From Pontibacter sp. E15-1 (lineage in GTDB: Bacteria; Bacteroidota; Bacteroidia; Cytophagales; Hymenobacteraceae), in the NCBI RefSeq assembly GCF_022601975.1, contig NZ_JAKVIR010000006.1, positions 124,001 through 188,000 on the forward strand: DNA of 64,000 nucleotides, written 5' to 3'. The notes below the pieces were generated by a model. The model had not been told where the DNA came from and ran no database searches. It worked only from the letters and a program-made list of their open reading frames with translations. Every line of letters starts with the position of its first letter. Position 1 is the first letter of the stretch. Below, one piece after another: positions 1,809 through 44,464 of the stretch. A program made the translations under genes and the position numbers.

Positions 1809-1853
1809 ACAAGTTACGCAAGTGTGCTATGCCGTTACGTGACTTTGATCACA
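1809..1853 (-). promoter_or_regulatory. Crp/Fnr-type operator and promoter of the TsdA-like cytochrome (site 1)
   Basis: The palindrome CGTGACTTTGATCACA lies at 1838-1853, 63-78 bp before the cytochrome start. On the leftward strand a weak -10-like element, TAACTTG, lies at 1810-1816, about where the other four sites of this island have theirs. The porin gene is divergent, so the site could serve both sides, but no good -10 is visible at the matching rightward position. Confidence 0.6.
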
Positions 1854-1985
1854 AAGCCTCTCATAAAATAAGAGCAACTTACAGCCATATATGGCGCTTC
1901 GGGCAAACCAATGGCTGCCAGTGCCAATGCGCTACAACTGAAAATGCCGTATGGCGATGAACAGAGAATTACTTTTTATACCTTC

Positions 1986-3494
1986 ATGACACGTTTTAGC
2001 AGACACCCCGCTGCCAAGCGAAGGGAAACCCGCAGGCTGTTGCTTACAGCAGCTGTACTAGTGCTGCAGTTGGGAGTGGCTTTTGGCCAACCTGTCCCCG
2101 TTGATTCGGCTTTAAAAACGGAGCTGCTTATCAGCAAAGGAGATACCGCAAGGCTACCGACTTCTACTATGCCCGCACCGGACACCACACTGCCCCAAAA
2201 CCTAACGTCCTTTTTAAAACAGGGGAAGTTCAGTGGGCAGGTGCGCAACTTATTTATGTTCACAGATAATGAGGCTGACTTACCAGACTATCATTCGCTG
2301 GCATTAGGTGCAGGGCTGGGCTATGAGTCTGCGAAGTTTCATGGCTTTCAGGTGGGGGTGAGCGGTTTCTTTATCTTCAATGTGTGGTCCAGCAACCTGG
2401 GCACAGACCCCGCAACAGGTTTTAGGAGCCGCTACGAAATAGGAAACTTCGACCTGCTTGACCCCGATGACCGCTATGATCTGGGGCGAATGGAGAATTT
2501 ATACCTGCGCTATACCTATAAAAAGTCAGCGGTAACGCTTGGCAGGCAAAAGATCAACACGCCTTTTATCAACCCACAAGACGGACGTATGCGCCCTACC
2601 TTGATAAACGGGCTTTGGCTGGAGTATAAAGAACTGGGAAAGCTCAGTTTTAACGGTGGTTTGATCTATGGTTTTGGTCCGCGGAGTACAGCTGATTGGT
2701 TTAGCGTGGAAGAAAGCATCGGCTCTATAGCTGCGGCCAGGAATGTCTACGGCACACCCTCGCAATATATAGGAAATATCAGCAGCAAGGGGATAGCTGT
2801 CGGGAGCATAACCTACCAGCCTGCCAAAACTATAAAATCAAGCCTGTGGCACTATTATGTGGAGAACCTGTTTACCCTTTCCTTTTCTCAAACCGACGTA
2901 TCGATACCAGTTTCTCAAGATAAAAAGCAAAGCGTTGTGCTGGGTTTTCAGGCGGGCTACCAACGGACCTCTGGCGATGGGGGCAATGCAGACACGCTGA
3001 AAGCCTATATGCCAAAGGGCGCCAACACCTGGCTGTTTAGCGGAAGGCTGGGGTATAAAACCGATAAAGTAGAAACGACCCTGAACTATACCCGGATTGC
3101 AGACAGGGACAGGTTCCTGTTTCCGCGGGAGTGGGGGATCGAGCCTTTTTACACCTTTCTGTCTAGAGAGCGCTTCGAGGGCGGGGCTGCCAGTATGGCC
3201 ATTGCCCTAAAAACAGAGGTCAGACTAAACCCCCAATGGAAAGCGAGTGTAGGGTATGGGCTTTACGATACACCTGACGTTAAAAACGCGCGCCAAAGCA
3301 AGTATGCCATGCCCTCTTACAGCCAACTTAACCTGCTGACAAACTACGCTTTGAAAGGCTACCTGGATGGGCTGGTTTTGCAGGCGCTCTACGTGTATAA
3401 AGGCGCGCGTGGCGAGACCTACGGAGACCCTCGGTTTATCGTGAACAAGGTAGACATGTCGCACTATACCTTCGTGATGAATTACCAGTTTTAA
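1986..3494 (+). CDS. OprD-like outer membrane porin
   Basis: I chose the ATG at 1986 because it gives a normal signal peptide: basic KRRETRR, then a hydrophobic LLLTAAVLVLQLGVAFG core, cleaved before Gln. An in-frame ATG at 1911 would add 25 non-signal residues. The mature part, about 470 residues, is a run of amphipathic beta-strand-like segments rich in Tyr, Gly and aromatic residues. It ends in YTFVMNYQF, with the terminal Phe typical of outer membrane barrels. The motif TLGRQKINTPFINPQDGRM is like OprD-family porins of Bacteroidota. Its place between the thiosulfate-type cytochrome and a metallophosphatase remnant suggests uptake of a small substrate for the sulfur pathway, which is inference. 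Confidence 0.7.
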   Translation: MTRFSRHPAAKRRETRRLLLTAAVLVLQLGVAFGQPVPVDSALKTELLISKGDTARLPTSTMPAPDTTLPQNLTSFLKQGKFSGQVRNLFMFTDNEADLPDYHSLALGAGLGYESAKFHGFQVGVSGFFIFNVWSSNLGTDPATGFRSRYEIGNFDLLDPDDRYDLGRMENLYLRYTYKKSAVTLGRQKINTPFINPQDGRMRPTLINGLWLEYKELGKLSFNGGLIYGFGPRSTADWFSVEESIGSIAAARNVYGTPSQYIGNISSKGIAVGSITYQPAKTIKSSLWHYYVENLFTLSFSQTDVSIPVSQDKKQSVVLGFQAGYQRTSGDGGNADTLKAYMPKGANTWLFSGRLGYKTDKVETTLNYTRIADRDRFLFPREWGIEPFYTFLSRERFEGGAASMAIALKTEVRLNPQWKASVGYGLYDTPDVKNARQSKYAMPSYSQLNLLTNYALKGYLDGLVLQALYVYKGARGETYGDPRFIVNKVDMSHYTFVMNYQF

Positions 3495-3539
3495 GAGGCC
3501 ATATTACCCTTGTTTATTGAGCCAACACACCACTATACT

Positions 3540-3788
3540 ATGAAAAAACTAACCATAATACAGCTAAATGATAGCCATGCTTACCTGGAGCCACACCAGG
3601 AAATGTTTTGGGAGGGAGGCAAGAAAGTATACCGAAAAACGGGTGGCTTTGCCCGCATGGCATTGGCTAAAAACCTGAAGCCAGACGATAAGCTAAACGC
3701 TGTGGGCGGCCTGATCTGGATAAAACCGAGCATATTAATTTACCCACCCCTGCCCCTCCGAGGAGGGGCAGGGGTGGGTTCTCCCTAG
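3540..3788 (+). pseudogene. 5' remnant of a SoxB/5'-nucleotidase-type metallophosphatase
   Basis: The ATG at 3540 opens a reading frame starting MKKLTIIQLNDSHAYLEP, the first metal-binding motif (the Asp and His of NDSH) of the SoxB/5'-nucleotidase family. About 58 residues, to around position 3713, look like that family. The rest of the usual 450-600 residues is missing: the frame runs into unrelated codons and then through a perfect GC-rich hairpin. With no second metal site or C-terminal domain it cannot be an enzyme. SoxB releases sulfate from a sulfur carrier, and the surrounding genes are sulfur genes, so an old SoxB-like function is possible. An ordinary 5'-nucleotidase is equally possible. 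It lies 45 bp after the porin gene. Confidence 0.65.
3742..3779. repeat. Perfect GC-rich inverted repeat with 18-bp arms
   Basis: The arms at 3742-3759 and 3762-3779 are perfectly complementary around a 2-base loop, with a run of CCCACCCCTGCCCCTCC on one side. No T-run follows, so it is not a typical terminator. It sits at the broken end of the metallophosphatase remnant, and looks like a small dispersed intergenic repeat. Confidence 0.8.
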
Positions 3789-3805
3789 CAAATAGTCTTA
3801 ATTAT

Positions 3806-3841
3806 AAAGAGAGAGCAGCCATACCTGGCTGCTCTCTCTTT
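3806..3841. terminator. Bidirectional hairpin terminator
   Basis: A 16-bp perfect stem (3806-3821 with 3826-3841) closes a 4-base loop. It overlaps the stop codon of the leftward sterol desaturase gene, so it ends that operon and may also stop transcripts coming from the porin side. Confidence 0.75.
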
Positions 3842-4760
3842 ATGCTGTTTCCCGTTTTTGATTGTTCACAGCGTCGGGTTTAGGTTTGGCTTCCATGTTC
3901 TCCCGAAAGGGGTATAACTGCTGCTCCATAAACGACTTCGGGTAATGTTCCACCTCGTCGAAGCCCAGTTCAATATCACGGCCATCTTCAGGCTCGTAAG
4001 CTGTTCCGAAAAGGTAATCCCAAACGCTTAGCGTGATGCCATAGTTGGCCCCGAAGCGCCGTGGCATGTGCTTGGCGTGGTGCCAGATGTGCATCTGCGG
4101 ATTGTTGAACAGAAAGCGGAACGGGCCTAGCGGCACCTTAAAGTTTGAGTGGTTAAAATGGCCTACTGCTGTGGCGAAAATGTGCACCAGGAAAAAGTCC
4201 TGAATGCCAAAGCCGATCATGGCCAGCGGAATATACTCTAAGGTACGGTATACCACCGTTTCGCCCCAATGGAAACGCAGGTGAGCGGCAAAACCCATCT
4301 GCTGAACCGAGTGGTGTACCTTATGGAAATTCCACAGAAACTCAAAGCGGTGTAGCAGGCGGTGCACGTTCCATTGTATAAAATCGCGCACCACAAATAG
4401 CGTAAGCAACTGCGCCCATACCGGCCACGACTGCACCTCAAAAGCCACGAGGTTGGTTATCCCAAACAGGCTTAGGAAATCGTTAAACGCCTCGACGCCG
4501 ATATTGGAGACCGCATTGAAACCAACCAGTGAGAACAGGAAAAAATTGAAGAACATGTAAAAGCCATCGAGCCAGAAATCCATACGGATCTTGGCCTGAT
4601 GCTGTCGCCAGGGGGCAATAACCTCCAGCAGCCAGAAGAACAGCGACAAGCCGATCAGCCAATAGAAGTAATTGCCCCAACTCGGGTTCAGGACCTCACG
4701 CCAGAGGTAACCCCCATAGTCAGCGAAAGAGTTGATGAATATGTTTCCGTATTTTTCCAT
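3840..4760 (-). CDS. Sterol desaturase / fatty acid hydroxylase family membrane protein
   Basis: This 306-residue integral membrane protein carries the histidine clusters of the fatty acid hydroxylase superfamily: HRLLH, then FHKVHHS, then HFNHS and MHIWHHAKH. These bind a di-iron centre that hydroxylates or desaturates lipid substrates in the membrane. Several hydrophobic segments fill the first half. It is the last gene of a leftward set with the DsrE, rhodanese and TlpA genes (gaps of about 25-75 bp), an unexpected partner for sulfur genes. The substrate cannot be told. Sulfonolipid, sterol-like and carotenoid-type substrates are all open. Confidence 0.8.
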   Translation of the reverse strand: MEKYGNIFINSFADYGGYLWREVLNPSWGNYFYWLIGLSLFFWLLEVIAPWRQHQAKIRMDFWLDGFYMFFNFFLFSLVGFNAVSNIGVEAFNDFLSLFGITNLVAFEVQSWPVWAQLLTLFVVRDFIQWNVHRLLHRFEFLWNFHKVHHSVQQMGFAAHLRFHWGETVVYRTLEYIPLAMIGFGIQDFFLVHIFATAVGHFNHSNFKVPLGPFRFLFNNPQMHIWHHAKHMPRRFGANYGITLSVWDYLFGTAYEPEDGRDIELGFDEVEHYPKSFMEQQLYPFRENMEAKPKPDAVNNQKRETA

Positions 4761-4785
4761 GTAATGGATAAAAGTTTAAAGGCTT

Positions 4786-5241
4786 TTACAGCTTGATGTA
4801 GCTATAGCCCTCTTCTTGTTTTTCGATAATCTCTACAACGCCCATCGGCACCGTGATCACACCGGGCAGCAACTGCTCTTTTTGCACATTGTGGGCACGC
4901 ATCGCATTCTCGCAGGCTGCAAAAACCACGCCTTTCGCCTGCAATGCCTTCAACTCTTCGGCATTGGCGGCTTTGTTTTTCATCAGCATCTCCAAGCCGT
5001 TGCCGTGCACCACTACCTCCAGCCTGGCCTCGGGCCAGTGGTCCATCATTCTGTCCAGGTGCTGCATAATCTTGCCTTGCCGTGCGCTGTCCGCCGATAC
5101 CACATCATACACCACGCGGTGCTGCTTGGCGGCTGGTGCTGTTTGGCTGCCAGCAAGCTTTGCCTTTGTTTTTGTCTGGGCAATAGTAGCCTGCGCTGCC
5201 AAAAGAAAAAGGGCTGCAAAAAAGATCAGTTTAAGTTTCAT
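4786..5241 (-). CDS. Periplasmic DsrE-family protein
   Basis: This 151-residue protein has an N-terminal signal peptide (about 1-21) and a DsrE/DsrF-like domain: VVYDVVSAD near residue 43, VVVHGNGL near 76, and the conserved Cys110 in VVFAACENAMRAH. Members of this fold carry sulfur as a persulfide on that cysteine in sulfur-relay systems. Here the protein should act in the periplasm. It is 30 bp after the rhodanese lipoprotein and 25 bp before the hydroxylase gene, in one leftward operon. Its exact donor and acceptor are unknown. The neighbouring rhodanese is the obvious candidate donor. Confidence 0.75.
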   Translation of the reverse strand: MKLKLIFFAALFLLAAQATIAQTKTKAKLAGSQTAPAAKQHRVVYDVVSADSARQGKIMQHLDRMMDHWPEARLEVVVHGNGLEMLMKNKAANAEELKALQAKGVVFAACENAMRAHNVQKEQLLPGVITVPMGVVEIIEKQEEGYSYIKL

Positions 5242-5271
5242 GGGTTTTTAGGTTAGGTGAGATTTATACAG

Positions 5272-5715
5272 TTATTCGACAGGAACACCGGCGTTTTTCA
5301 AATTCGAGAAGCCTTCGGTGGCATCGTATACCTGCTTAAAGCCGAGCTGTTGCATTTGCTGGGCTGCCTGGTGGCTCCTGCCTCCAACGGCGCAGTATAC
5401 CAGGTAGGATTTCGACTTATCCAAGGCCTGCAGCCGCTGCGAGAAATCGGCGGCGCTGATGTCAACCAGCGTGGCGTTCTGCAGGTGGCCGGCGGCAAAC
5501 TCCGCGGGCGTGCGCACATCCAGCACAACGATGCCCGGCTCTTGCGCCAGCAAAGCCTTCGCCTCCTGGCTGTCTACTTTTTTCGCTTTTGCCGTTTCTG
5601 CAGCCGTTTGGGTTTGTGCCGCGACTGCTACCGTAGTATCGCCGGATGAGGCGGACTCGGCACTGCAGGAGGCCAGAAGCGCGCCTGCTACCAGAACTAA
5701 GGATAATTTTTTCAT
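5272..5715 (-). CDS. Rhodanese-domain lipoprotein
   Basis: The start MKKLSLVLVAGALLASC is a lipoprotein signal with Cys17, so the protein is anchored in a membrane facing the periplasm. After a linker rich in Ala and Thr, one rhodanese domain covers about residues 45-147. It has VVLDVRTPAEFAAGHL and the active-site loop CAVGGRS with Cys108. Rhodaneses move sulfane sulfur between thiosulfate, persulfides and acceptor thiols. It lies between the TlpA thioredoxin and DsrE genes, which would make a sensible periplasmic relay, though this is inferred from order alone. Confidence 0.85.
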   Translation of the reverse strand: MKKLSLVLVAGALLASCSAESASSGDTTVAVAAQTQTAAETAKAKKVDSQEAKALLAQEPGIVVLDVRTPAEFAAGHLQNATLVDISAADFSQRLQALDKSKSYLVYCAVGGRSHQAAQQMQQLGFKQVYDATEGFSNLKNAGVPVE

Positions 5716-5790
5716 ATGGTTTTTTTAAAGAGGGTGTTTTAAAGTATGCTGACCGCCGACAGGCAGCAGCCAGCATACCCTTTGTTTCTA

Positions 5791-6423
5791 TTATTTTGCC
5801 ATTCCCTGCAGGAAATCCCGCACTTCCTGGGTGTCGTATTCGGCCATACCCTCCTGCTTGGCCACAATCTTGCCTTCCGGCGAGATGATGAACGTGGTGG
5901 GGATGGCGTTGCTGTAAAACTCCTGCGGCAACTGGCCGGCCGGCATGTATACCGGAAACGTGAAGCCTTTCTTGTCGATAAACTTCTTCACTTTCTCCGG
6001 GCCGCCCTCATCCACCGACAGCATCACAAAGGCGATTTTGTCGGAGCCTACCTTTTCGTAAAGCTTCTGGATGTTCGGCATCTCTGCCACGCAGGGCGGG
6101 CACCAGGTGGCCCACATATTCATGAACACCACTTTCCCTTTCAGGCTTTCGAAGTTCACGGTCTTGCCATCCAGGGTCTGCATTTTAAAACCGGCTCCAG
6201 CCATAGGCGAGGCGCTCATTTCTGACGTCTTAGCAACGTCTCCGGCAGTTTTTGCAGGCAGATTATCGGGCATGTCAGCGTTTTTTATACCTGTTGCCAG
6301 CAGCAGGCGCTGCACCTGCCCGATGGCCTCGGTATGGAGGCCGGTGAGGTATAGCATCCCAAAAATGGCCAGCGTAATAGCCCAGCCCGGTATGTCTTTG
6401 AATGAAAATCTCTTCTTATCCAT
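5791..6423 (-). CDS. TlpA/ResA-family membrane-anchored thioredoxin
   Basis: This 210-residue protein has one N-terminal membrane helix (about 13-29), then a spacer and a thioredoxin-like domain (about 80-210) with the active site WCPPC (Cys108 and Cys111) in MWATWCPPCVAEMP. The cis-Pro region is AIPTTF. Such proteins reduce disulfides or persulfides in the periplasm. It is the first gene of the leftward set TlpA, rhodanese, DsrE, hydroxylase, and could regenerate their thiols. No Crp/Fnr palindrome was seen in front of it, unlike most other units of this island. Confidence 0.85.
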   Translation of the reverse strand: MDKKRFSFKDIPGWAITLAIFGMLYLTGLHTEAIGQVQRLLLATGIKNADMPDNLPAKTAGDVAKTSEMSASPMAGAGFKMQTLDGKTVNFESLKGKVVFMNMWATWCPPCVAEMPNIQKLYEKVGSDKIAFVMLSVDEGGPEKVKKFIDKKGFTFPVYMPAGQLPQEFYSNAIPTTFIISPEGKIVAKQEGMAEYDTQEVRDFLQGMAK

Positions 6424-6578
6424 CTTATAATATTTGTGCGTTTACTACTTGTTTAACTGAGGCATAGCTATACCATACCCGTGTTCCTGATGATACAGGA
6501 TGCACACAGCACCAGTTGAGCAACAAGCATATGTTTGCCCATGCTACTCAGTGCGCGTACTGATTTATCGGAAATAGT

Positions 6579-6947
6579 TTAAGAAAACCGGGGTGGGTCA
6601 GGGTCTGTCGCCAGATCGGGGGGGAGATGGATGCGGACATCCTTCAGGAAGCGTGTTCGCTCCACCTGAATTGTGTATGAAGCGTTGTGATCCGATGCCG
6701 ACAAAACAGCATATACCTGCTGCCCGCAATCAGTGGCAAAGCTGGCCGCGCCCTGCTGCTCGGAGTGGGTCTGGTGCTTGATGCACTTTTTGCGGCATGT
6801 GCGCTTTAAGGCAACTTTGCTTTTGCTGCAAGAACTGTTCAGTTCGCTCTGCCCGTTACCTCCATTGCCCCGCAAGCCACTGTTGTTTTTCGGCAACGCG
6901 AAAAGCAGCAGGAGGGTGCTCAGGAATAATAACAGGTATGGCTTCAT
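6579..6947 (-). CDS. Small secreted cysteine-containing protein of unknown function
   Basis: The 122-residue product begins with a signal peptide (MKPYLLLFLSTLLLLFALP) and has a basic, cysteine-bearing middle (SSCSKSKVALKRTCRKKCIKH, then ATDCGQQVYAV). The four cysteines and several histidines could bind a metal or form disulfides. The C-terminal third looks like a small beta-strand domain. I know similar proteins only as hypothetical proteins of Cytophagales. It stands alone between the TlpA operon and the MFS gene. Confidence 0.6.
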   Translation of the reverse strand: MKPYLLLFLSTLLLLFALPKNNSGLRGNGGNGQSELNSSCSKSKVALKRTCRKKCIKHQTHSEQQGAASFATDCGQQVYAVLSASDHNASYTIQVERTRFLKDVRIHLPPDLATDPDPPRFS

Positions 6948-7075
6948 AGGCAGATTAGGGCAATATTATTTGCAGTTTTATACTTGATCTTAGTTTGAAC
7001 AACAACCCAAGGGGTATAAATCGTTTCAGCGGATTGGTTTACAGGTATAAATGTAGGCATTTTGGGGTTCTAATA

Positions 7076-8323
7076 CTACCCGATACCGCATTCGCGGCTA
7101 TGCCAGAGCAGCTTTTTGGTGCAGCACATTCGCACCTCCGAAAGCACACCCGCACCGATGGTCAGCAAGGCCGTACCCAGCAATACCGCCTGCAGGCCAA
7201 ACAGGTCGCTGAACACACCGGCTATCACGGCACCGGCCACGTAGCCGAAATCACGCCAAAATCGGAAAATGCCCAGGCTCTGCGGCCGTTGGGCTGGGTG
7301 CGTGTTCTCGGCCACCACCGACAGGAAGTTAGGGTATACCAACGCAGTGCCCGCGCCCAGTATCACCAGCGCCGAAACCAGGATAGGGTAGGAGCCGGAA
7401 AAGTACAGGAGCCCGATCGCCGCGCCCTGTATCATCATGCCCAAACTCAACAGTTGTTTTTTGCATACCATATCCCCGAGCTTTCCCGTCACCAGTTGGC
7501 CCAGGCCCCATACCACCGGGTAGATACCTGCCAGGAAACCAGTCTCCGTCAGGCTATACCCCTTCGACAGCAGCAGCACAGGCAACAGGCCCCACAAGAT
7601 GCCATCGTTCAGGTTATTCACAAAGCCGTTGAGCGTAACAGAGCCCAGGTTGCGGTGGCGCCAGGTCGTGTCCTTCCAAATGTTGCGCAACAGCGGGATG
7701 CTGGTTTTGGCCGCTTCGGTTTTCACGTGCGCGTGCGTATCCCGGATAAAGAAGACCGTGAGCAGCAAGCCGATGATGGAGAAGGCGATGCCCGGTGTGA
7801 AGGCATAAGACACAACGCCCGTTGTAGAGGCGATGTATCCCGCCAGGAACGACATCAGACCCACCGCCAGGTAACCGGCAAACTCGTTGATGCCCATGGC
7901 CAGGCCACGGTTCTTTTCGCCAACCAGGTCAATCTTCATCACCACAGTGGCAGACCAGGCGAGCCCTTGGTTAAGGCCCAGCAGAAGGTTGGCGGCAATT
8001 ACCCACCACCAGTTACCGGCATACAGCAACAGCCACGGCACTGGCAGGGCAAAGAGCCAGCCCAGGGTTAACAACTGCTTTCGGGTATACCTGGTAGTCA
8101 GGCGGCCCATCATCAGGTTGGCAAACGATTTCGCCAGCCCAAAGGCCACGATAAACGACAGCAGCGCGGTATGGCCGCTGATGCCGAAAACAGTCTCGGC
8201 AAACTCCGGTATAACCGAGCGTTCCAGCCCAACCATCGCGCCCACAAACCCGTTGATCAGCACCAACAGCCAGAACTGTGTGGCGTTTTCCCTTAATCCA
8301 AGTTGTGTGTCCGTTGAACTCAT
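7076..8323 (-). CDS. Major facilitator superfamily transporter
   Basis: This 415-residue protein has about twelve hydrophobic segments. A loop between helices 2 and 3 reads GRLTTRYTRKQLL, close to the MFS signature, and the second half repeats it as GKLGDMVCKKQLL. The helix LGLNQGLAWSATVV is also MFS-like. The substrate is not evident. It follows the two YeeE/YedE genes on the same strand after a gap of about 156 bp, so it may belong to their unit and export or import a sulfur compound, but it could also be independent. Confidence 0.8.
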   Translation of the reverse strand: MSSTDTQLGLRENATQFWLLVLINGFVGAMVGLERSVIPEFAETVFGISGHTALLSFIVAFGLAKSFANLMMGRLTTRYTRKQLLTLGWLFALPVPWLLLYAGNWWWVIAANLLLGLNQGLAWSATVVMKIDLVGEKNRGLAMGINEFAGYLAVGLMSFLAGYIASTTGVVSYAFTPGIAFSIIGLLLTVFFIRDTHAHVKTEAAKTSIPLLRNIWKDTTWRHRNLGSVTLNGFVNNLNDGILWGLLPVLLLSKGYSLTETGFLAGIYPVVWGLGQLVTGKLGDMVCKKQLLSLGMMIQGAAIGLLYFSGSYPILVSALVILGAGTALVYPNFLSVVAENTHPAQRPQSLGIFRFWRDFGYVAGAVIAGVFSDLFGLQAVLLGTALLTIGAGVLSEVRMCCTKKLLWHSRECGIG

Positions 8324-8479
8324 CTTTCTGTTTCTGTCGTCAGTAATATGTACGTGCTGCCGGATAGGGTATGGCTTGGGCCAAATTGAAGCACCAAGTT
8401 ATACCTACGCAACCGCCTATAAGCACAGAACCGATGGACTTTGCAGGGCCATCGGTTCCGGGTTTGTTTTCATTATTGC

Positions 8480-8893
8480 TTAATGCGGGAGCCTGTCGCG
8501 CAGCAGGCCATACAGGTATGTGCCTATCAAGGCGCCGCCAATGGCGATCAGAATGGCCCAGTAGCCATACCCCAGGTTCACGAACATCGGGCCCGGGCAA
8601 GCGCCTGTCAGTGCCCACCCCAATCCGAAGATGGTGCCGCCAATCAGGTAGCGCGGAACTGATTTCTCCTTCGGCGTGAAGATGATCGGGTTGCCCTGAT
8701 AATCCTTCATGTTATACTTCTTGATCAGGTAAGTGGCAATGGCTCCCAGCACAACGGCTGTTCCGATGATGCCATACATGTGGAAGGCCTGGAAACGGAA
8801 CATCTCCTGAATTCTGTACCACGAGATCGCCTCTGACTTACTCATCACGATGCCGAACAAAATGCCGGCTACTATAAATTTTAATCCTTTCAC
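8480..8893 (-). CDS. YeeE/YedE-family transporter, second half
   Basis: This 137-residue protein has four hydrophobic segments and the motif LTGACPGP with Cys99. In the YeeE/YedE family, conserved cysteines line the path for thiosulfate or related sulfur compounds. Full-length members contain two such halves in one chain. Here the halves are separate genes 48 bp apart, an arrangement known in many sulfur-oxidising and sulfide-tolerant bacteria. It is probably co-transcribed with the rhodanese at 9593-9919 from the promoter at 9960-10004. Confidence 0.85.
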   Translation of the reverse strand: MKGLKFIVAGILFGIVMSKSEAISWYRIQEMFRFQAFHMYGIIGTAVVLGAIATYLIKKYNMKDYQGNPIIFTPKEKSVPRYLIGGTIFGLGWALTGACPGPMFVNLGYGYWAILIAIGGALIGTYLYGLLRDRLPH

Positions 8894-8941
8894 GGTATAA
8901 ACTCTTAGTTGATGGATGTATGATTTAGCGCGCTGCTGTGC

Positions 8942-9499
8942 TTACAGTATGAACGGCAGCAGTAGGTGTGTCATGATCAGGCCACCGATGAAGAAACCGA
9001 TAACCGCGATCAGCGACGGCAGCTGCAGGTTAGACAAACCGCTGATGGCGTGGCCCGATGTACAGCCACCTGCGTAGCGTGATCCGAAACCGATCATCAA
9101 GCCACCGATCAACATGATCAGGAAACCGTTTGCCGTGAAGAGGGCCTCCAGACTGAAGATCTCATCCGGCTGCATGCCATCCGGGGCTGCCACCCCCAGG
9201 GCGTTCAGGTCCTGGATGGTAGCCTGCGAGATCTGTACAACGTCGCCGTTAGACAGGAACTCAGAAGAGATCCATCCGCCCAGTACAGCGCCCACTACAA
9301 ACAGCAGGTTCCAGGTTTGCGCGCGCCAGTCAAAATCGAAAAAATTGACTTTCTTGCCCGCGCCGCAGGCTGCGCAGATTACGCGCAGGTTAGATGAAAA
9401 GCCAAACGACTTCCCGAAAAACAGGAGGATCACCATCACAAATGCGATCAAAATTCCTGATGTGTACCAAGGCCAAGGCTGGCTAAGTAATTCTAACAT
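8942..9499 (-). CDS. YeeE/YedE-family transporter, first half
   Basis: This 185-residue membrane protein has the family signature GSRYAGGCTSGHAISG with Cys146 and the matching His150. Cys42 and Cys45 (VICAACGAG) are two further cysteines in a loop after the first helix. It likely pairs with the product of the next gene to move thiosulfate or another sulfane sulfur compound across the inner membrane. The upstream rhodanese gene is 93 bp away, with a hairpin in between (9540-9573). Confidence 0.85.
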   Translation of the reverse strand: MLELLSQPWPWYTSGILIAFVMVILLFFGKSFGFSSNLRVICAACGAGKKVNFFDFDWRAQTWNLLFVVGAVLGGWISSEFLSNGDVVQISQATIQDLNALGVAAPDGMQPDEIFSLEALFTANGFLIMLIGGLMIGFGSRYAGGCTSGHAISGLSNLQLPSLIAVIGFFIGGLIMTHLLLPFIL

Positions 9500-9539
9500 T
9501 TTCCTTATTCTAAATTATTGGGAGTGTACGGTTGAAGTA

Positions 9540-9573
9540 GGTATGAACAGGCCACTTGCTGTTCTGTTCATAC
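9540..9573. terminator. Intergenic hairpin between rhodanese and YeeE/YedE
   Basis: An 11-bp perfect stem, GGTATGAACAG at 9540-9550 with its complement at 9563-9573, lies between two genes of one likely operon. There is no T-run on the leftward strand, so it may be an attenuator or a mark for mRNA processing rather than a full stop. Confidence 0.45.
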
Positions 9574-9592
9574 CCAGGCTTTATTTCGAAAA

Positions 9593-9919
9593 CTATCTTG
9601 GCCAGGAGCCTACGCCGCCAACCAGGTTATGGGCTTTAAAGCCTTGGTCTGCGAGCAGCTTGCAGGCAGAGCTGCTGCGGTTGCCGCTGCGGCAAAACAC
9701 GTAATACTCCTTGTCCTTGTCGAGCTTCCTGGTGGCAACCTGAAACTGGCCAGACAGGAAGTCGAGGTTTTTGGATCCGGGGATAGTGCCAGATGCAAAC
9801 TCACTTGCGGTGCGCACATCCAGCAGCTCGGCCTTTGGGGACTTATCGAACTCAGCCTTGAATGTCTTCCCGTCCAGGTCAGCATAATTCTTTGGAGTTG
9901 ATTTGAATATATTTAGCAT
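9593..9919 (-). CDS. Cytoplasmic single-domain rhodanese
   Basis: The 108-residue protein is one rhodanese domain without a signal peptide: LLDVRTASEFASGTIPGS, then the active-site loop CRSGNRS with Cys76. It would take sulfane sulfur from thiosulfate or a persulfide in the cytoplasm. It is the first gene after the promoter with palindrome site 2 (9989-10004), followed by the two YeeE/YedE genes. Imported sulfur could therefore be handed to it directly, which is inference from gene order. Confidence 0.9.
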   Translation of the reverse strand: MLNIFKSTPKNYADLDGKTFKAEFDKSPKAELLDVRTASEFASGTIPGSKNLDFLSGQFQVATRKLDKDKEYYVFCRSGNRSSSACKLLADQGFKAHNLVGGVGSWPR

Positions 9920-9959
9920 GGCTATATTTCTTTAGATGGTTCCTTTACAACTTACTATA

Positions 9960-10004
9960 CAAAGGTCCGGGTTTTCCAGCCCCAGTTCAGTGACTTAGGT
10001 CACG
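9960..10004 (-). promoter_or_regulatory. Crp/Fnr-type operator and promoter of the rhodanese-YeeE/YedE unit (site 2)
   Basis: The palindrome AGTGACTTAGGTCACG is at 9989-10004. On the leftward strand GACCTTTG (9960-9967) matches the Bacteroidota -10 TAnnTTTG in all but its first base. The centres are 33 bp apart, placing the palindrome near -43 as in class II activation. Confidence 0.7.
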
Positions 10005-10057
10005 TAGTGGGGAATTTTGAAATTTGTAAATCTTTGATGCAATCCGTGTTTGAAAAA

Positions 10058-10225
10058 TCATCCCCCTGCCCCCTTCTTTGTCGAGGGCCCCTACTCCCAA
10101 GGGGGACTTTTTTCTGCTATATCAGTTTCCATACATTAAGCTTTGTAGGGACGATGAATTACACATAAATCTTAGTGTGTTCTACTCGTGCAGAACGTCC
10201 CCCTTTGAAGGGGGCAGGGGGATGA
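10058..10225. repeat. Small element with 18-bp inverted ends
   Basis: The ends TCATCCCCCTGCCCCCTT (10058-10075) and its exact complement (10208-10225) enclose about 130 bp with no plausible gene. The shape resembles a miniature inverted-repeat element or another dispersed intergenic repeat. The inside contains GAGGGCCCCTACTCCC at 10083-10098, a motif also found in the larger repeats near 42.0 and 62.9 kb. Confidence 0.6.
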
Positions 10226-10246
10226 ATTACATTCCCAACATAGCTC

Positions 10247-11659
10247 TTACTTCAGCGTAGAAGGGCAAACGAAAGCCGTTTTCGGAATGGCTGTTTCGCT
10301 GATGGACTTAAAGCCACCTTCCACATTTACAACGTTGTCAAAACCTCTTGCCTTCAGGATAGAGGCGGCGATCATGGAGCGGTAGCCACCAGCGCAATGC
10401 AGGTACATATCCTCCGTCTTTGGCAACTCAGCCAGGAAGTCGTTCAGGAAGTCTAGGGGCGCATTTTCCGCTGTCTCCACGTGCTCCGACTGGAACTCGC
10501 TAGGCTTGCGCACATCCACCACCTTGATGCTGTTGTTCTGGGTATAGCGGTCCGCAAACTCTGTAGCGGCGATAGAGCTGATCGTGTCTACTTCCTTGCC
10601 TGCGTTTGCCCAGCTTTTAAAACCACCTTTCAGGTAACCGATCGCGTGGTCGTATCCCACACGGGCCAGTCGGGTTACTACTTCCTCCTCGCGGCCTTCC
10701 TCCGCCACAAACAGGATCGTCTGCTTGATGTCCGGGATCAGGGCGCCTACCCATGGGGCAAAGTTACCGTCGATACCGATGTTGATGGCGTTCGGGATAA
10801 AGCCTTTGGCAAAGTCCTCCGGCTTACGGGTGTCCAGTACCAGGGCTCCGGTCTCGTTCACGGCTGCCTCAAACGCGTCCGGCGCTAAGGCCTGCAAGCC
10901 CTGCTCCATCACGTCGTCGATGTTGGCGTAGCCTTCTTTGTTCATCTTCACGTTCAGTGGGAAGTAGCTTGGCGGCGGTGCCAAACCGGCTGTCACTTCT
11001 TTCACGAACTCCTCTGCCGTCATGTCTGCGCGCAGGGCATAGTTGGTGGCCTTCTGGTTGCCGAGTGTGTCAGACGTCTCCTTGCTCATGTTCTTGCCAC
11101 AAGCCGAGCCCGCGCCGTGCGCCGGGTATACGATCACGTCATCCGCCAACGGCATGATCTTGTTGCGAAGCGAGTTGTACAAATGCGTTGCAAGCTGCTC
11201 CTGCGTCAGCTCCGATTTTGCGGCCAGGTCCGGGCGGCCCACATCCCCGATAAACAGGGTGTCGCCGGTGAAGATGGCATAGTCCTTTCCTTGCTCGTCT
11301 TTCAGCAGGTAGGTAGTCGATTCCATGGTATGGCCCGGCGTGTGCAGCACAGTGATTGTGACATCCCCGACTTTCAGCACCTCGCCGTCTTTGGCGATGT
11401 AGGAGTCAAAACTGGTCTGGGCGTTCGGCCCGTAAACGATCTGCGCATTGGCGGCTTTCGCCAGGTCGATGTGGCCTGAAACGAAGTCGGCGTGGAAGTG
11501 CGTTTCGAGCACATACTTGATCTTCACGCCGTTCTGCTCCGCTTTCTCCAGGTATGATCTGATCTCGCGAAGTGGATCAATGATGGCGGCCTCGCTGTTG
11601 CTTTCGATGTAATATGCGCCCTGTGCCAGGCAACCGGTATATAGCTGTTCTACTTTCAT
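10247..11659 (-). CDS. Metallo-beta-lactamase / double rhodanese fusion (persulfide dioxygenase-like, CstB type)
   Basis: Residues 1-250 form a metallo-beta-lactamase domain with the iron-binding set of persulfide dioxygenases: HFHAD at 54-58, His63, His110, Asp133 and His181. Two rhodanese domains follow. The middle one (about 260-355) has lost its catalytic cysteine: the loop reads LFVAEEGREEE. The last one (about 365-460) keeps Cys422 in HCAGGYRS. Such fusions oxidise persulfides to sulfite and/or thiosulfate and protect against sulfide. The length of 470 fits the family. It has its own promoter with site 3 (11741-11756) and a paralogue at 14202-15539. Confidence 0.88.
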   Translation of the reverse strand: MKVEQLYTGCLAQGAYYIESNSEAAIIDPLREIRSYLEKAEQNGVKIKYVLETHFHADFVSGHIDLAKAANAQIVYGPNAQTSFDSYIAKDGEVLKVGDVTITVLHTPGHTMESTTYLLKDEQGKDYAIFTGDTLFIGDVGRPDLAAKSELTQEQLATHLYNSLRNKIMPLADDVIVYPAHGAGSACGKNMSKETSDTLGNQKATNYALRADMTAEEFVKEVTAGLAPPPSYFPLNVKMNKEGYANIDDVMEQGLQALAPDAFEAAVNETGALVLDTRKPEDFAKGFIPNAINIGIDGNFAPWVGALIPDIKQTILFVAEEGREEEVVTRLARVGYDHAIGYLKGGFKSWANAGKEVDTISSIAATEFADRYTQNNSIKVVDVRKPSEFQSEHVETAENAPLDFLNDFLAELPKTEDMYLHCAGGYRSMIAASILKARGFDNVVNVEGGFKSISETAIPKTAFVCPSTLK

Positions 11660-11711
11660 GGTATGTAGTGTTTTATGGTGTGAGTGCCATCGCTAATCCT
11701 TGATGACAGTA

Positions 11712-11756
11712 CAAATATCGTAAGATAATAAGCCCGGGTCAGTGACATTGGTCACG
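11712..11756 (-). promoter_or_regulatory. Crp/Fnr-type operator and promoter of the first MBL-rhodanese gene (site 3)
   Basis: The palindrome AGTGACATTGGTCACG is at 11741-11756. The leftward -10 candidate GATATTTG (11712-11719) differs from TAnnTTTG in one of its fixed bases. The centre-to-centre distance is 33 bp, the same as at sites 2, 4 and 5. Confidence 0.65.
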
Positions 11757-11762
11757 CGGGGG

Positions 11763-12617
11763 TTAGGCGAAGAATATTTCCTTGGCAATGATGTAGACAC
11801 CCATCGCCAGCACAAACCAGCCGAAGGAAGTCTTCAGTTTATCCGCGTGGATTTTGGTGGACAGGAAGGAGCCCAGAAAGATGCCGACCACAGAGAAGGC
11901 GGAGAAGATAGCCAGGAACATCCAGTCGATCTCGTAGTTGTAGATGTCGCCGACAAAGCCGAACAGCGATTTGGCCGCAATGATGAGCAGGGAAGTGCCT
12001 ACCGCCATTTTCATGTCCAGCTTACTGAACAGTACCAGCGCCGGGATGATCAGGAAACCGCCCCCGGCCCCCACAAGTCCCGTCAGGGTACCTACCACTA
12101 GGCCTTCGGCCAATATCCCGATGTAGTTGAACTTAGGCTTTGGGTGCGGTGCCGTGGCGCTCTCGTACTCCACATCAATCGCCGTGTCGATATTATCGTC
12201 CACGCTGCCGTTTGCCTCCTTTTTCTGACGGATCATGCTGATAGACGCGAACACCATGAGCGCGGCAAAAAGCAGCATCAGCATCACGCCTTTGGTAACG
12301 GCAAAATCGCCCACGTGAAAGAGGTTTTCGGGGATGGCAGGCACCAGGTAACGGCGCGTGGTATACACCGCAATGATAGACGGTATGCCAAACACAACCG
12401 CTGTTTTGAGGCTTACGAGGCCCTTCCTGTAAAACCGGTAGCTGCCAAAAAGGCTTGTAAGCCCTACGATGAACAGGGAGTAAGCCGTGGCGATCACCGG
12501 ACTCAGGCCCAGCAGGTAAACAAGCACCGGAACAGTAAGGATAGAGCCGCCACCACCAATCAAGCCCAGGGAAAGCCCGATGATGAGGGCCGCAATGTAA
12601 CCGAGTATAACAATCAT
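11763..12617 (-). CDS. TauE/SafE-family sulfite (or sulfur compound) exporter
   Basis: This 284-residue membrane protein has two repeats of the TauE/SafE fold. Each begins with a Gly-rich helix: GLSLGLIGGGGSILTVPVL near residue 14 and GLVGAGGGFLIIPALVLF near residue 179. The loop between the halves is acidic and hydrophilic. Members export sulfite, sulfoacetate or similar anions. Beside two persulfide dioxygenase-type genes, export of sulfite made by them is a reasonable guess. It is read leftward from the promoter with site 4, whose -10 is a perfect match, and is divergent from the DUF302 gene. Confidence 0.85.
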   Translation of the reverse strand: MIVILGYIAALIIGLSLGLIGGGGSILTVPVLVYLLGLSPVIATAYSLFIVGLTSLFGSYRFYRKGLVSLKTAVVFGIPSIIAVYTTRRYLVPAIPENLFHVGDFAVTKGVMLMLLFAALMVFASISMIRQKKEANGSVDDNIDTAIDVEYESATAPHPKPKFNYIGILAEGLVVGTLTGLVGAGGGFLIIPALVLFSKLDMKMAVGTSLLIIAAKSLFGFVGDIYNYEIDWMFLAIFSAFSVVGIFLGSFLSTKIHADKLKTSFGWFVLAMGVYIIAKEIFFA

Positions 12618-12644
12618 ATGCTTTTAGTTTAATTTTCAACACTA

Positions 12645-12689
12645 CAAAGGTACGGCAGGCGAACCCCGATCACTGTGACAATGGTCACA
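12645..12689 (-). promoter_or_regulatory. Crp/Fnr-type operator and promoter of the TauE/SafE gene (site 4, divergent)
   Basis: TGTGACAATGGTCACA at 12674-12689 is the best palindrome of the set. Leftward, TACCTTTG (12645-12652) is a full match to TAnnTTTG, 33 bp from the palindrome centre. Rightward, TATATTTT at 12708-12715 is a near match 30 bp away, so the same site may also drive the DUF302 gene. Confidence 0.75.
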
Positions 12690-12830
12690 TAGATAGGAAA
12701 CACAGAATATATTTTCGGCCCGCATTTAGGATTAATTGTGGCATGTGCTGCGTCTATGCCGCGATTGGTTAACGGTTCAACCACACGCCGTGCTGCGCGT
12801 ATGCTAAAAGGCACAACTTAAGCGATAACT

Positions 12831-13217
12831 ATGAATTACAACTTCACGAAAAAAGTAGACTATACCTTTCAGGAGGCACTGGAAAAGACAAAAGAGGCAC
12901 TCAAAGCCGAGGGCTTCGGCGTAATCAGCGAGATCGACCTGAAAGAGAAATTCAAGGAGAAACTGGATCTTGATTTCAGGGAATACATGATACTGGGCGC
13001 CTGCAACCCGGCCCTCGCGCACAAGGCCATTGAGCAGGAAGACAAGATCGGGACCATGCTGCCCTGCAACGTGCTGGTGCAGGAGCACGCTGGCGGAAAC
13101 GTGGAGGTCACTGCCATCAACCCGATGGAGTCGATGTCGTCGGTCGGGAACGATAACCTAACGGAGGTCGCCAAAGAGGTAAGCGAGAAGCTGAAAACAG
13201 CACTCGACAAGCTGTAA
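12831..13217 (+). CDS. DUF302-family protein
   Basis: The 128-residue soluble protein matches the DUF302 pattern: FQEALEKTKEALKAEGFGV, then GACNPALAHKAI and LPCNVLVQE. It has two cysteines, Cys63 and Cys79 by my count, in the conserved places of the family. DUF302 proteins are frequent next to sulfur-oxidation and sulfide-detoxification genes. Their chemistry is not established. It is the only rightward gene of this part of the island and is divergent from the TauE/SafE gene across operator site 4. A strong terminator follows at 13242-13277. Confidence 0.85.
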   Translation: MNYNFTKKVDYTFQEALEKTKEALKAEGFGVISEIDLKEKFKEKLDLDFREYMILGACNPALAHKAIEQEDKIGTMLPCNVLVQEHAGGNVEVTAINPMESMSSVGNDNLTEVAKEVSEKLKTALDKL

Positions 13218-13241
13218 ACCGGCATCCATACCCATACATAC

Positions 13242-13277
13242 AAAAAGCCCTGGCATTTGAATTTGCCAGGGCTTTTT
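13242..13277. terminator. Bidirectional terminator between DUF302 and Crp/Fnr genes
   Basis: A 14-bp perfect stem (AAAAAGCCCTGGCA at 13242-13255 with its complement at 13264-13277) with A and T runs on the two sides works for both converging genes. Confidence 0.9.
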
Positions 13278-13281
13278 GCTT

Positions 13282-13929
13282 TTAGATATTGTCCAGGTCG
13301 TGTACCTCCAGGTAGCTGCGGTGCAGGGTAATGGCCCCGGTCTGCTCCAGCTTTTTGAGCAGCCTCGAGATCACTTCGCGGGAACTGTTGAGCTCGTAGG
13401 CGATCTGCTGGTGCGAAAGGCGTATCTCGTTGCCGCTCACTTTTACATGGCGCTTCAGGTAAAAGAGCAAACGCTCGTCAAGGGCCTTAAAAGCAATGCT
13501 ATCGAGTGTTTGCAGCAGTTCATCAAAGCGCTGGCGGTAGGAGGCGATCACGAAGTTGTGCCACGTTTTATACTTGGCCAGCCAGGCCTCCGAGAAGTGG
13601 GACGGGATGAGGATAATTTCTGACGCGGCCACCGCCTGGGCCTTTATCTGGCTTTTCTCGTTCTTAGCGGTACACATCATCGAGAGGGCACAGGCGTTGC
13701 CGGGCTCCAGGTAATACATCAGGAACTCGTTGCCCTCTTCATCCTCGCGGTATACCTTCAGCAGGCCGCTCAGCAGCAGTATCGTGGATTTGATGTATTG
13801 GCCCGTGCGCATGGCTTCTTCGCCTTCCTCAAGTTCTTTCAGCGTGCTCTCACTCATGATCTCTTCCAGCAGGGGTTGCTCCAGTTGCGGGAAGATTTTG
13901 TGCAGAATGTGTTCGGGAATCGTTTCCAT
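13282..13929 (-). CDS. Crp/Fnr-family transcription regulator
   Basis: This 215-residue protein has an N-terminal cyclic nucleotide-binding-like domain (about 20-120), a dimer helix (about 125-150) and a C-terminal winged helix with recognition region LSHQQIAYELNSSREVISR at 171-189. It has only two cysteines, Cys80 and Cys86 (NACALSMMCTAK), so it lacks the iron-sulfur cysteine set of classical FNR. The position of the pair in the sensory domain would suit a thiol or persulfide switch, which is a guess. The gene sits in the middle of the island whose promoters carry five Crp/Fnr-type palindromes, so it is the natural candidate to bind them. No such palindrome is visible before its own start. 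Confidence 0.9.
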   Translation of the reverse strand: METIPEHILHKIFPQLEQPLLEEIMSESTLKELEEGEEAMRTGQYIKSTILLLSGLLKVYREDEEGNEFLMYYLEPGNACALSMMCTAKNEKSQIKAQAVAASEIILIPSHFSEAWLAKYKTWHNFVIASYRQRFDELLQTLDSIAFKALDERLLFYLKRHVKVSGNEIRLSHQQIAYELNSSREVISRLLKKLEQTGAITLHRSYLEVHDLDNI

Positions 13930-13986
13930 GGACGAGGGTATAGGTATGGTAAAATGTGTGTTTAAATATACGAGGTTAAAAAAATA

Positions 13987-14022
13987 AAACCAGTATGGGC
14001 AAATGTATGCCCATACTGGTTT
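13987..14022 (-). terminator. Terminator of the second MBL-rhodanese gene
   Basis: A 15-bp perfect stem (13987-14001 with 14008-14022) is followed on the leftward strand by TTTTATTTTTTT. It ends the transcript of the gene at 14202-15539 before the Crp/Fnr gene. Confidence 0.85.
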
Positions 14023-14060
14023 GTGTATCAGGGGTATAAAGTAATCTGTTTTTTATTTGA

Positions 14061-14185
14061 ATGCTTGCCCTCGCTCGCCTCTGGCGAGTGTGAGATTTTC
14101 AGAGGCGTCCCGCCACGTGTGTTTTTTGCAGCGGCCAGAGGCCGAACAATGACGCACACTCGCCAGAGGCGAGCGAGAGCATGCA
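14061..14185. repeat. REP-like imperfect inverted repeat
   Basis: The arms at 14061-14092 and 14154-14185 are nearly complementary over about 32 bp. Each arm contains a small palindrome of its own, CTCGCCTCTGGCGAG. The centre has a related GCGGCCAGAGGCCG at about 14131-14144. The layout is that of paired repetitive extragenic palindromes. It lies just after the stop of the second MBL-rhodanese gene. Confidence 0.75.
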
Positions 14186-14201
14186 TAGGCTAACCCGTTT
14201 C

Positions 14202-15539
14202 TTATTTGAAGTCGTTCACGGCTTCGCTTAGGTCCAGCACTTTGGTTTTAGGCAAGGCGGATTCCACGATGCTGCTACCAGCCGCAGAACGGTAGCCGCC
14301 AGCGCAATGCACCACCACAGGCTTGTCGTTCGGTATCTCGTTGGCGCGCTCACGCAACTCCGGCAGCGGAATGTTGATGGAGTCTTTAAAGAACTTCTGG
14401 CTCTTTACCTCCGATGCGTTGCGGATGTCCACGATGGTATACTTATCCTGATTTTCCTTGAAGTCAGCAAGGTCAATCTTTGGAGAGTCAACCGCCGCCT
14501 CGGCATCCAGCACAAAGGCTCCTTTTATCAGCGCCTCATACCCGATCTTGGCTGATTTCGCGATCACGGTTACCAGTTGCTCCTCATCGGCAGCCACTAA
14601 ATAGAACTGCTCCTCAGGGCCTGCGATGCTTCCCAGCCAGGTCTCAAATTTGGCTCCCTCCTGTATGTTGATTGCGCCTTCCTGGTGGCTCTTTTTGAAC
14701 GTCTGCTGGTCGCGGGTATCCACGATGATCGCGCCTGCTTCCGGTGTGAAGTTCTTCTCCAGCCGCTTCACTTTTTCGATGCTTTGCCGGTAAGCCGGAG
14801 CGCCTTTCTTGTTCAGGGCCACATCATACCCAAAGTATTTCGGCACGAACGGCTGTTCTTCGGTAATGAGCTTCACAAAAGCCTCCTCCGTCATTTGCTG
14901 CAGGGCATAGTTGCCCATTTTCTCAGCGCCGATGGTGCTGCTGTTGGCTTCGCTCAGGGCTTTTCCGCAAAGCGTTCCGGCTCCGTGCGCAGGGTATACC
15001 AACACATCGTCTGCCAGCTTCATCAGCTTGTCGCGGGTGCTGTGGTACATGTCGCGGGCCAGTTCCTCTCTTTTGGCGGTCACGTTACCGGCGCTCTCGC
15101 GCAGGTCGGGGCGGCCCACATCGCCAATAAACAGGGTGTCGCCAGTAAACACGGCCTTGTCCTTTCCGTCGTGCTCCAGCACAATGCTGATGCCGTCGGG
15201 CGAGTGGCCGGGCGTGTGCAGCGATTTCAGCTTGATCTTTCCGATCTCCAGCTCCGCGCCTTCGTCAAAAGCCTCGAACGGGTAATCTGCGCCTACCAGG
15301 CTGTGGGCGTATATCGTGGCCCCTGTCTTCTGGTGGATCTCTAAATGCGCGCTCACAAAGTCGGCATGGGGGTGCGTTTCGATCACGCCCACAATCCGGG
15401 CATTGTTTGCCTCGGCGTAAGCATAGTATGGCTGCGGGTCGCGGGCCGGGTCTATCAAAACAAGCTCGCCTGCGCACTCACTCAGAATGGCATACGAGTA
15501 ATGCGCCAGGCCTTTATCTTCAAACTGTTTAATCTTCAT
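14202..15539 (-). CDS. Second metallo-beta-lactamase / double rhodanese fusion (persulfide dioxygenase-like)
   Basis: The layout is the same as in the gene at 10247-11659, but the sequence is clearly diverged, so this is an old duplication or separate acquisition. The metal ligands are HPHAD at 56-60, His65, His112, Asp134 and His185. The middle rhodanese (about 265-345) again lacks a cysteine (loop LVAADEEQ). The last rhodanese (about 355-440) has Cys412 in HCAGGYRS. It likely oxidises persulfides in the cytoplasm. It has its own promoter with operator site 5 and its own terminator. Confidence 0.88.
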   Translation of the reverse strand: MKIKQFEDKGLAHYSYAILSECAGELVLIDPARDPQPYYAYAEANNARIVGVIETHPHADFVSAHLEIHQKTGATIYAHSLVGADYPFEAFDEGAELEIGKIKLKSLHTPGHSPDGISIVLEHDGKDKAVFTGDTLFIGDVGRPDLRESAGNVTAKREELARDMYHSTRDKLMKLADDVLVYPAHGAGTLCGKALSEANSSTIGAEKMGNYALQQMTEEAFVKLITEEQPFVPKYFGYDVALNKKGAPAYRQSIEKVKRLEKNFTPEAGAIIVDTRDQQTFKKSHQEGAINIQEGAKFETWLGSIAGPEEQFYLVAADEEQLVTVIAKSAKIGYEALIKGAFVLDAEAAVDSPKIDLADFKENQDKYTIVDIRNASEVKSQKFFKDSINIPLPELRERANEIPNDKPVVVHCAGGYRSAAGSSIVESALPKTKVLDLSEAVNDFK

Positions 15540-15633
15540 AAATAATCAGTTTTGGTTTGTTGTCCAGTTTATAGGGCCGGATGTTGTGCCTGCCCTTGGG
15601 TGAAGCCGCGAATGTGCAGCTGCTTTATACTTA

Positions 15634-15678
15634 CAAAAGTACGATGCTTTCGCCCCCGGTACTGTGACGTTTGTCACA
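15634..15678 (-). promoter_or_regulatory. Crp/Fnr-type operator and promoter of the second MBL-rhodanese gene (site 5)
   Basis: The palindrome TGTGACGTTTGTCACA is at 15663-15678. The leftward -10 TACTTTTG (15634-15641) is a full match to TAnnTTTG, 33 bp centre to centre. Confidence 0.75.
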
Positions 15679-17603: not shown

Positions 17604-17608
17604 AGCGC

Positions 17609-44430: not shown

Positions 44431-44464
44431 TAAAATTATTTTTCATTTAAATCATCATAGAACT

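Follow-up and report, generated by a model that had tools for sequence, protein, structure and literature searches.

A predicted Crp/Fnr-type regulon for persulfide and thiosulfate metabolism in Pontibacter and its relatives

An island of sulfur genes in the genome of Pontibacter sp. E15-1 carries five palindromes of the type bound by Crp/Fnr proteins, and a gene for a Crp/Fnr protein lies within it. Do these palindromes define a regulon, and is the protein encoded among them its regulator? We analysed the stretch of 64,000 nucleotides that holds the island (contig NZ_JAKVIR010000006.1, positions 124,001 to 188,000; hereafter the window), together with the genome it comes from and several sets of relatives, starting from an original prediction that the palindromes mark a local sulfur regulon. 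We conclude, with a probability of about 0.8, that they belong to a conserved sulfur regulon in which the island Crp/Fnr protein likely binds as a dimer and activates genes for persulfide dioxygenases (PDO), rhodaneses, YeeE and TauE proteins and the thiosulfate dehydrogenase TsdA. Four features that can be read directly from the genomes carry this reading: the site itself, the fixed distance of 33 bp from its centre to that of a -7 box, the families of the genes that follow, and the way in which sites and regulator occur together. At the level of sequence, there is good support for a regulon of Crp/Fnr type that serves persulfide and thiosulfate metabolism.

Palindromes and -7 boxes in the window

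We took GTGA-N6-TCAC, a 14-base core, as the site pattern and checked the five sites of the window by direct reading of the sequence (Table 1). All five palindromes of the original prediction were recovered, each upstream of a sulfur gene unit as proposed: tsdA (site 1), a rhodanese-YeeE-YeeE unit (site 2), a first PDO-rhodanese gene (site 3), tauE (site 4) and a second PDO-rhodanese gene (site 5). The predicted distance between the centres of palindrome and box proved exact at sites 2-5, where a NANNTTTG box stands at an identical offset toward minus-strand genes, 22 bases after TCAC (33.0 bp centre to centre). The weaker match described at the same offset from site 1 is TAACTTGT, which faces tsdA. 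The Crp/Fnr gene is likewise present inside the island.

How readily would such sites arise by chance? The window holds seven matches to GTGA-N6-TCAC against 0.56 expected, a number that none of 100 shuffles reached. The two extra palindromes, at 45269 and 52440, lie inside long open reading frames (ORFs; 44414-47638 and 52197-53456, respectively) and were rejected as sites. We scanned the whole genome (5.59 Mb in 55 contigs) with the reversed pattern as control. The bare pattern GTGAN6TCAC matched 89 times against 41 for the control, so the palindrome alone is not rare; GTGACN4GTCAC matched five times, four of them in the island, and its reversed control four times. When TTTG at the fixed offset was required in addition to the palindrome, there were four matches, all in the island (sites 2-5), and none for the control. 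Allowing two mismatches in the fuller pattern added 34 matches (control, 15), among them site 1 in both orientations. The regulon is local, as had been proposed, as far as the strict sites of this genome are concerned, but relatives have some sites away from the regulator gene.

Co-occurrence of sites and regulator among relatives

Across 150 genomes of the family, with loose sites counted and regulator homologues accepted at E <= 1e-40, we found a homologue in 68; in four of these (G013, G115, G131 and G032) it reaches only about 40% identity. All 68 regulator-bearing genomes have at least one site and 66 have at least two (300 sites in all). Among the 82 genomes without a homologue, 19 have any site and seven at least two, for a total of 30 sites. 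In these same 82 genomes the reversed control matches 23 times, and at least nine of the 30 sites are a single recurring GTGAAxCC..TTCAC sequence unlike the sulfur sites. A Fisher test on genomes with at least two sites gave p of about 1e-31, a value that overstates the weight of the association since kinship among the genomes is ignored. Sites and regulator thus occur together in relatives, which supports the original prediction. In three genomes (G057, G027 and G045) PDO1 is present, no regulator was detected and the fetched stretch has no strict site.

The spacing and the downstream genes are conserved as well. Among the best 80 contigs of 259 relatives of the regulator, a site followed by TTTG at a spacing of 26 occurs 186 times, in 66 contigs, against 0-15 times for each of the other spacings from 16 to 36. 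We set aside the lesser peak at spacing 28 (15 matches), of which 10 are, judged by position, strict-site palindromes read from the opposite strand. Homologues of TauE (56), PDO2 (39), PDO1 (36), rhodanese (32) or YeeE (6) follow 169 of the 186 sites; 16 sites precede another ORF and one precedes none. These labels were assigned by script to the nearest homologue within 500 bp, and a few may be off. In many species the sites thus stand before the same gene families, in support of the original interpretation. At PDO1 loci, a perfect site lies 96-128 bp upstream in 24 of 30. Information content in the four main promoter sets is 0.26-0.50 bits per column in the spacer and 1.15-1.62 bits in the three columns after TCAC (mostly TG), which were outside the selection; the conserved TG may be a remnant of a -33 element.

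Site 1 was followed separately. tsdA occurs in 46 of the 150 family genomes, 23 with and 23 without the regulator. A site lies about 70-135 bp upstream in 22 of the 23 regulator-positive loci (20 perfect, two with 7/8 bases) and near the gene in none of the seven regulator-negative loci examined out of 23, where one 7/8 match stands at -532. Site 1 is thus conserved upstream of tsdA where the regulator is present, in agreement with the original assignment, and we reject the possibility that it is a chance palindrome. At the same distance from the palindrome, the boxes of these 22 tsdA promoters read TAnnTTGY in 12 and TAnnTTG in 14, not TAnnTTTG; the box at one locus, L245, is TAATTTAG, which leaves these counts unaffected. 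The window box TAACTTGT fits the TAnnTTGY-type boxes of relatives (L225-L246). This type of box resembles motif SM5 of Flavobacterium psychrophilum (PMC9723704). The variant sequence hints that a second, alternative sigma factor may read the tsdA box.

The arrangement reaches beyond the family. In a distant set of 22 contigs, mostly from flavobacteria, each of the 13 tauE genes is preceded at this position by a palindrome with 7/8 or 8/8 bases, and 12 of the 13 have the full box at the same spacing; their half-sites are altered, usually to GTGAY..RTTAC or its mirror image. We fetched 20 further stretches around sites, many of them distant from the regulator. Nine have a site before TauE, PDO1, PDO2, YeeE or tsdA, four others have one only before a protein of 126-133 amino acids beside a rhodanese-like gene, and one has a site before a thioredoxin-like ORF (WCGSC motif, read by eye); in three stretches a site precedes other ORFs and in the remaining three no ORF is in range.

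Several further loci deserve mention. The 126-133-amino-acid protein with an upstream site beside a rhodanese-like gene was seen at L300, L304, L305, L306 and L309. A thioredoxin reductase gene with an upstream site lies near the regulator gene at L057 (8754-9743), L063, L073, L089 and L108, the family being assigned by a family scan at L057 and by sequence likeness at the others; this gene is likely an extra regulon member in some Pontibacter. At L076 (18087-19736) a site stands upstream of a gene for a SoxB-like metallophosphatase (286.9 bits; cut-off, 550). L295 (at 835) and L296 (at 652) have in common the site GTGATTGATATCAC and the box GACATTTG with no ORF directly downstream, possibly belonging to an RNA gene.

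The regulator and its possible mode of action

The island protein belongs to the Crp/Fnr superfamily: PF00027 and PF13545 both score over the cut-off, and the predicted fold matches CRP/FNR structures. Its closest homologues reach 94% (a Pontibacter sp. protein). Pfam finds Crp-type helix-turn-helix (HTH) and cNMP domains only, which places the protein outside the classes of CstR (CsoR), BigR-SqrR (ArsR) and FisR (sigma-54). The recognition helix is SREVISR. E. coli CRP reads GTGA by the residues R-E-x-x-x-R. Three proteins in the genome exceed the Crp-HTH cut-off and a fourth matches weakly; among the three, these residues are present in the island protein alone. In other respects it falls outside both of the classical families. 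GE and R of E. coli CRP contact cAMP; in the alignment they correspond to AL and K, so that the cAMP-contact residues are absent, and the NCBIfam CRP equivalog model gives 44.9 bits against a cut-off of 266. FNR needs four cysteines for its [4Fe-4S] cluster, whereas the regulator has two only and scores 24.9 against 228 bits with the NCBIfam Fnr model. These sole cysteines, C80 and C86, are conserved in 114 of 114 and 112 of 114 of the homologues found in the loci. In the predicted structure (mean predicted local distance difference test score, pLDDT, 87.9) they stand at a short, poorly predicted helix of the sensor domain.

A second type of regulator, about 40% identical to the first, is encoded at L290 (2911-3561), L291 (5253-5909) and L292 (8125-8865). 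It shares the recognition helix of the first, has a CAV(S/A)LTCC cysteine motif, and adjoins the same kind of sites before PDO2, YeeE or TauE. In G013, G115 and G032 the homologue of about 40% identity agrees in both recognition helix and cysteine motif and occurs with the same sites; G131 and G097 also encode a regulator of about 40% identity.

In F. psychrophilum the -7 box TAnnTTTG was mapped at -12 to -5 (PMC9723704). Applying this box position here puts the palindrome centre at -41.5. Of the original proposal, a centre near -43 as in class II activation, the class II-type geometry stands, and the centre shifts to -41.5 if the flavobacterial box position applies. Judged by geometry, the promoters appear to have what is expected of class II Crp-dependent promoters, a centre near -41.5 over a weak -33/-35 element. 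We propose that a dimer of the island regulator would bind each palindrome, with the R-E-x-x-x-R recognition helix reading the GTGA half-sites, and that this dimer, centred at -41.5, would extend over the weak -33 region and touch RNA polymerase in the manner of a class II activator, the outcome being activation rather than repression. On this evidence the protein probably acts as the class II activator in a persulfide/thiosulfate regulon. Because the cAMP contacts are missing and both cysteines are nearly invariant, the signal may be a reactive sulfur species, either persulfide or polysulfide, that C80 and C86 would sense, and we offer persulfide sensing by the island regulator as a hypothesis. 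A wider proposal is tentative: that the regulon spans the phylum Bacteroidota, that in it a Crp/Fnr protein with a two-cysteine sensor where the cAMP pocket would be both senses persulfide and, as a class II activator, turns on sulfide detoxification and thiosulfate oxidation, and that tsdA has joined it through a variant -7 box read by an alternative sigma factor.

Several observations weigh against the assignment of these sites to a sulfur regulon under the island protein. Two genomes, G060 and G037, have sites and neither regulator type was detected in them; G075 has the regulator beside tauE with no strict site in the fetched stretch, G023 has the regulator and tsdA with no site, and a Botryobacter locus (L078) has the regulator with no site or target genes nearby. 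In the distant set, the full box with a palindrome of at least 7/8 stands before PDO1 in seven of 10 cases, before YeeE in two of five and before rhodanese in none of five, although the flavobacterial rhodanese genes without a site may lie inside operons. The two cysteines flank a helix of mean pLDDT 65 (residues 81-90), and both recur in the distant relative of known structure, Protein Data Bank (PDB) entry 3dv8; the pair may not be a sulfur signature. In addition, the genes for cytochrome oxidase subunit I, a metal-transport ATPase and NorB in the same genome have related sites at the same spacing, and sites found across the class also precede non-sulfur genes (Pfam covered 20 of the 30 downstream ORFs).

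These last two points bear on the spacing. The respiratory-type matches contain two mismatches and have T at an outer position where the sulfur sites carry G or C; at the three loci (L145, L147 and L149) the sites read TGAY-N4-RTCAT and probably make up a separate respiratory Crp/Fnr regulon. In the class-wide scan of 395 genomes, the strict pattern was found in 123 and a control match in seven. In at least five of the 30 loci fetched, the site is followed directly by a PDO1-type protein, and the Pfam families of the 20 downstream ORFs are rhodanese, OsmC, DoxX, DUF983, cytochrome bd, cytochrome c, Nramp, aldehyde dehydrogenase and others. Since near-sites of other genes and class-wide sites share the spacing, we take the geometry to be generic for Crp/Fnr-type promoters in these bacteria and reject the spacing as a mark of the sulfur regulon. 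Within this genome, the sulfur set thus appears to be marked by the outer GTGA bases and gene content together.

Might these be real Crp/Fnr sites that are bound by another protein? A response-regulator/Crp fusion or the third Crp protein could use them to run a general redox or respiratory regulon, and such an arrangement would fit the presence of two more Crp-type proteins in the genome, the similar sites before cytochrome oxidase, metal-ATPase and NorB, and the retention of sites in G060 and G037. However, the strict sites follow the island regulator over 150 genomes, the recognition helices of the other two proteins are K-E-x3-R and R-Q, and the respiratory sites differ in their outer bases; we consider binding by another regulator unlikely.

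It is also conceivable that the island regulator binds the sites and represses, blocking RNA polymerase at -41.5 until persulfide releases it. The persulfide/sulfane-sulfur sensor BigR (PMC7315123) and the ArsR-type sHdrR and SoxR (PMC12423496) are described as repressors. A repressor would need no exact spacing. Class II activation, in contrast, calls for a single exact distance, seen here in 186 sites at spacing 26, together with a weak -33 element, and FisR is a known persulfide sensor that activates (PMC7315123); repression strikes us as quite unlikely. Descent without function can be judged from the sites themselves. The promoters are near neighbours and some of the genes are paralogues (PDO1 and PDO2), as would be the case if the sites were relics of promoter duplication within a gene cluster, but only half-sites and box are fixed, the spacers showing no relation to one another (0.26-0.50 bits), and the sites persist over genera and at dispersed loci, which makes this origin highly improbable.

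Genes of the island and known regulatory systems

The products of the putative targets were assigned from their domains (Table 1). TsdA has the SoxA/TsdA-type cytochrome c domains, with a match to PDB 4wqc spanning residues 82-322, and is predicted to be a thiosulfate dehydrogenase. By Pfam, PDO1 consists of a metallo-beta-lactamase (MBL) domain and two rhodanese stretches, and PDO2 of an MBL domain and one scoring rhodanese stretch, so that both have the CstB-type architecture of MBL followed by rhodanese in one chain; both match PDB 3tp9 and 3r2u, the latter presumably CstB, over most of the chain. Two plus-strand neighbours were considered as targets. Toward oprD, site 1 offers only CAACTTAC, and site 4 likewise has no good box at the fixed spacing toward the DUF302 gene; we rejected both as driven by these sites, and membership of oprD in the regulon is uncertain. 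An inverted repeat spotted by eye between PDO2 and the regulator gene (14060-14190) is possibly a terminator or a repeat element, and RND efflux genes (OEP, HlyD and AcrB-type; 16224-21855) adjoin the sulfur island.

Table 1. Genes, palindromes and -7 boxes of the sulfur island, in window coordinates
Feature	Positions	Strand	Remarks
TsdA-type thiosulfate dehydrogenase (cytochrome c), predicted	687..1775	-	Pfam SoxA-TsdA_cyt-c; PDB 4wqc, E 1.6e-42
Site 1 variant -7 box TAACTTGT	1809..1816	-	tsdA promoter, fixed spacing
Site 1 palindrome GTGATCAAAGTCAC (minus-strand reading)	1839..1852	-	upstream of tsdA
OprD-family porin	1911..3494	+	divergent from site 1
YeeE/YedE half B	8480..8893	-	
YeeE/YedE half A (Sulf_transp)	8942..9499	-	far under cut-off for thiosulfate transporter TsuA
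Single-domain rhodanese	9593..9919	-	
Site 2 -7 box GACCTTTG	9960..9967	-	
Site 2 palindrome	9990..10003	-	promoter of rhodanese-YeeE-YeeE unit
PDO1, MBL (persulfide dioxygenase type) and rhodanese domains	10247..11659	-	
Site 3 -7 box GATATTTG	11712..11719	-	
Site 3 palindrome	11742..11755	-	PDO1 promoter
TauE/SafE family exporter	11763..12617	-	
Site 4 -7 box TACCTTTG	12645..12652	-	
Site 4 palindrome	12675..12688	-	TauE promoter
DUF302 protein	12831..13217	+	between TauE and regulator, opposite strand
Crp/Fnr-type regulator, 215 amino acids	13282..13929	-	between PDO2 and TauE
PDO2, second persulfide dioxygenase-rhodanese protein	14202..15539	-	directly upstream of regulator gene
Site 5 -7 box TACTTTTG	15634..15641	-	
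Site 5 palindrome	15664..15677	-	PDO2 promoter

How does the predicted regulon compare with known systems? The class II position of E. coli CRP is -41.5. The island promoters share with the class II promoters of that protein the GTGA-N6-TCAC site, an R-E-x-x-x-R helix (by alignment) and an estimated centre at -41.5; they differ from them in that the cAMP contacts are missing, the proposed regulon is dedicated to sulfur rather than global, and the box is the Bacteroidota TAnnTTTG. HcpR of Porphyromonas gingivalis (PDB 9day), which is tied to nitrosative stress, is also a Bacteroidota Crp/Fnr protein, with a TM score of 0.71 to the predicted model and 17% identity. The best-scoring solved relative by sequence and fold search is PDB 3dv8, from Eubacterium rectale; its cysteines align to C80 and C86, but it is 24% identical, comes from another phylum and has no known regulon.

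Similar genes are under the control of other classes of regulator elsewhere. The cst operon of Staphylococcus aureus (CstR, CstB and TauE) likewise combines an MBL-rhodanese persulfide dioxygenase with TauE, and CstR is a CsoR-family repressor, unlike the island regulator. FisR is a sigma-54-dependent activator and BigR belongs to the ArsR class, again unlike the island Crp/Fnr protein. Their regulons in Acinetobacter baumannii control persulfide dioxygenase and YeeE/YedE genes, as is proposed here; the BigR sensor is a dithiol pair (C34 and C100) and FisR an activator (PMC7315123). The same paper describes a persulfidated Crp-like protein in A. baumannii, a precedent that is nevertheless 50% identical to E. 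coli CRP and not tied there to a sulfur regulon.

A literature search that left subscription journals mostly outside and may have missed spelling variants returned no regulon of Crp/Fnr type for persulfide or thiosulfate in Bacteroidota; in the parts of the sources available, the sulfide and persulfide sensors met were of other protein classes, and none was for Bacteroidota. If our reading is true, the island would provide a testable Crp/Fnr activator whose site, box and targets are defined over Hymenobacteraceae, Chitinophagales and flavobacteria, along with a matrix that could be used at once to annotate sulfur genes and activator-dependent promoters in Bacteroidota.

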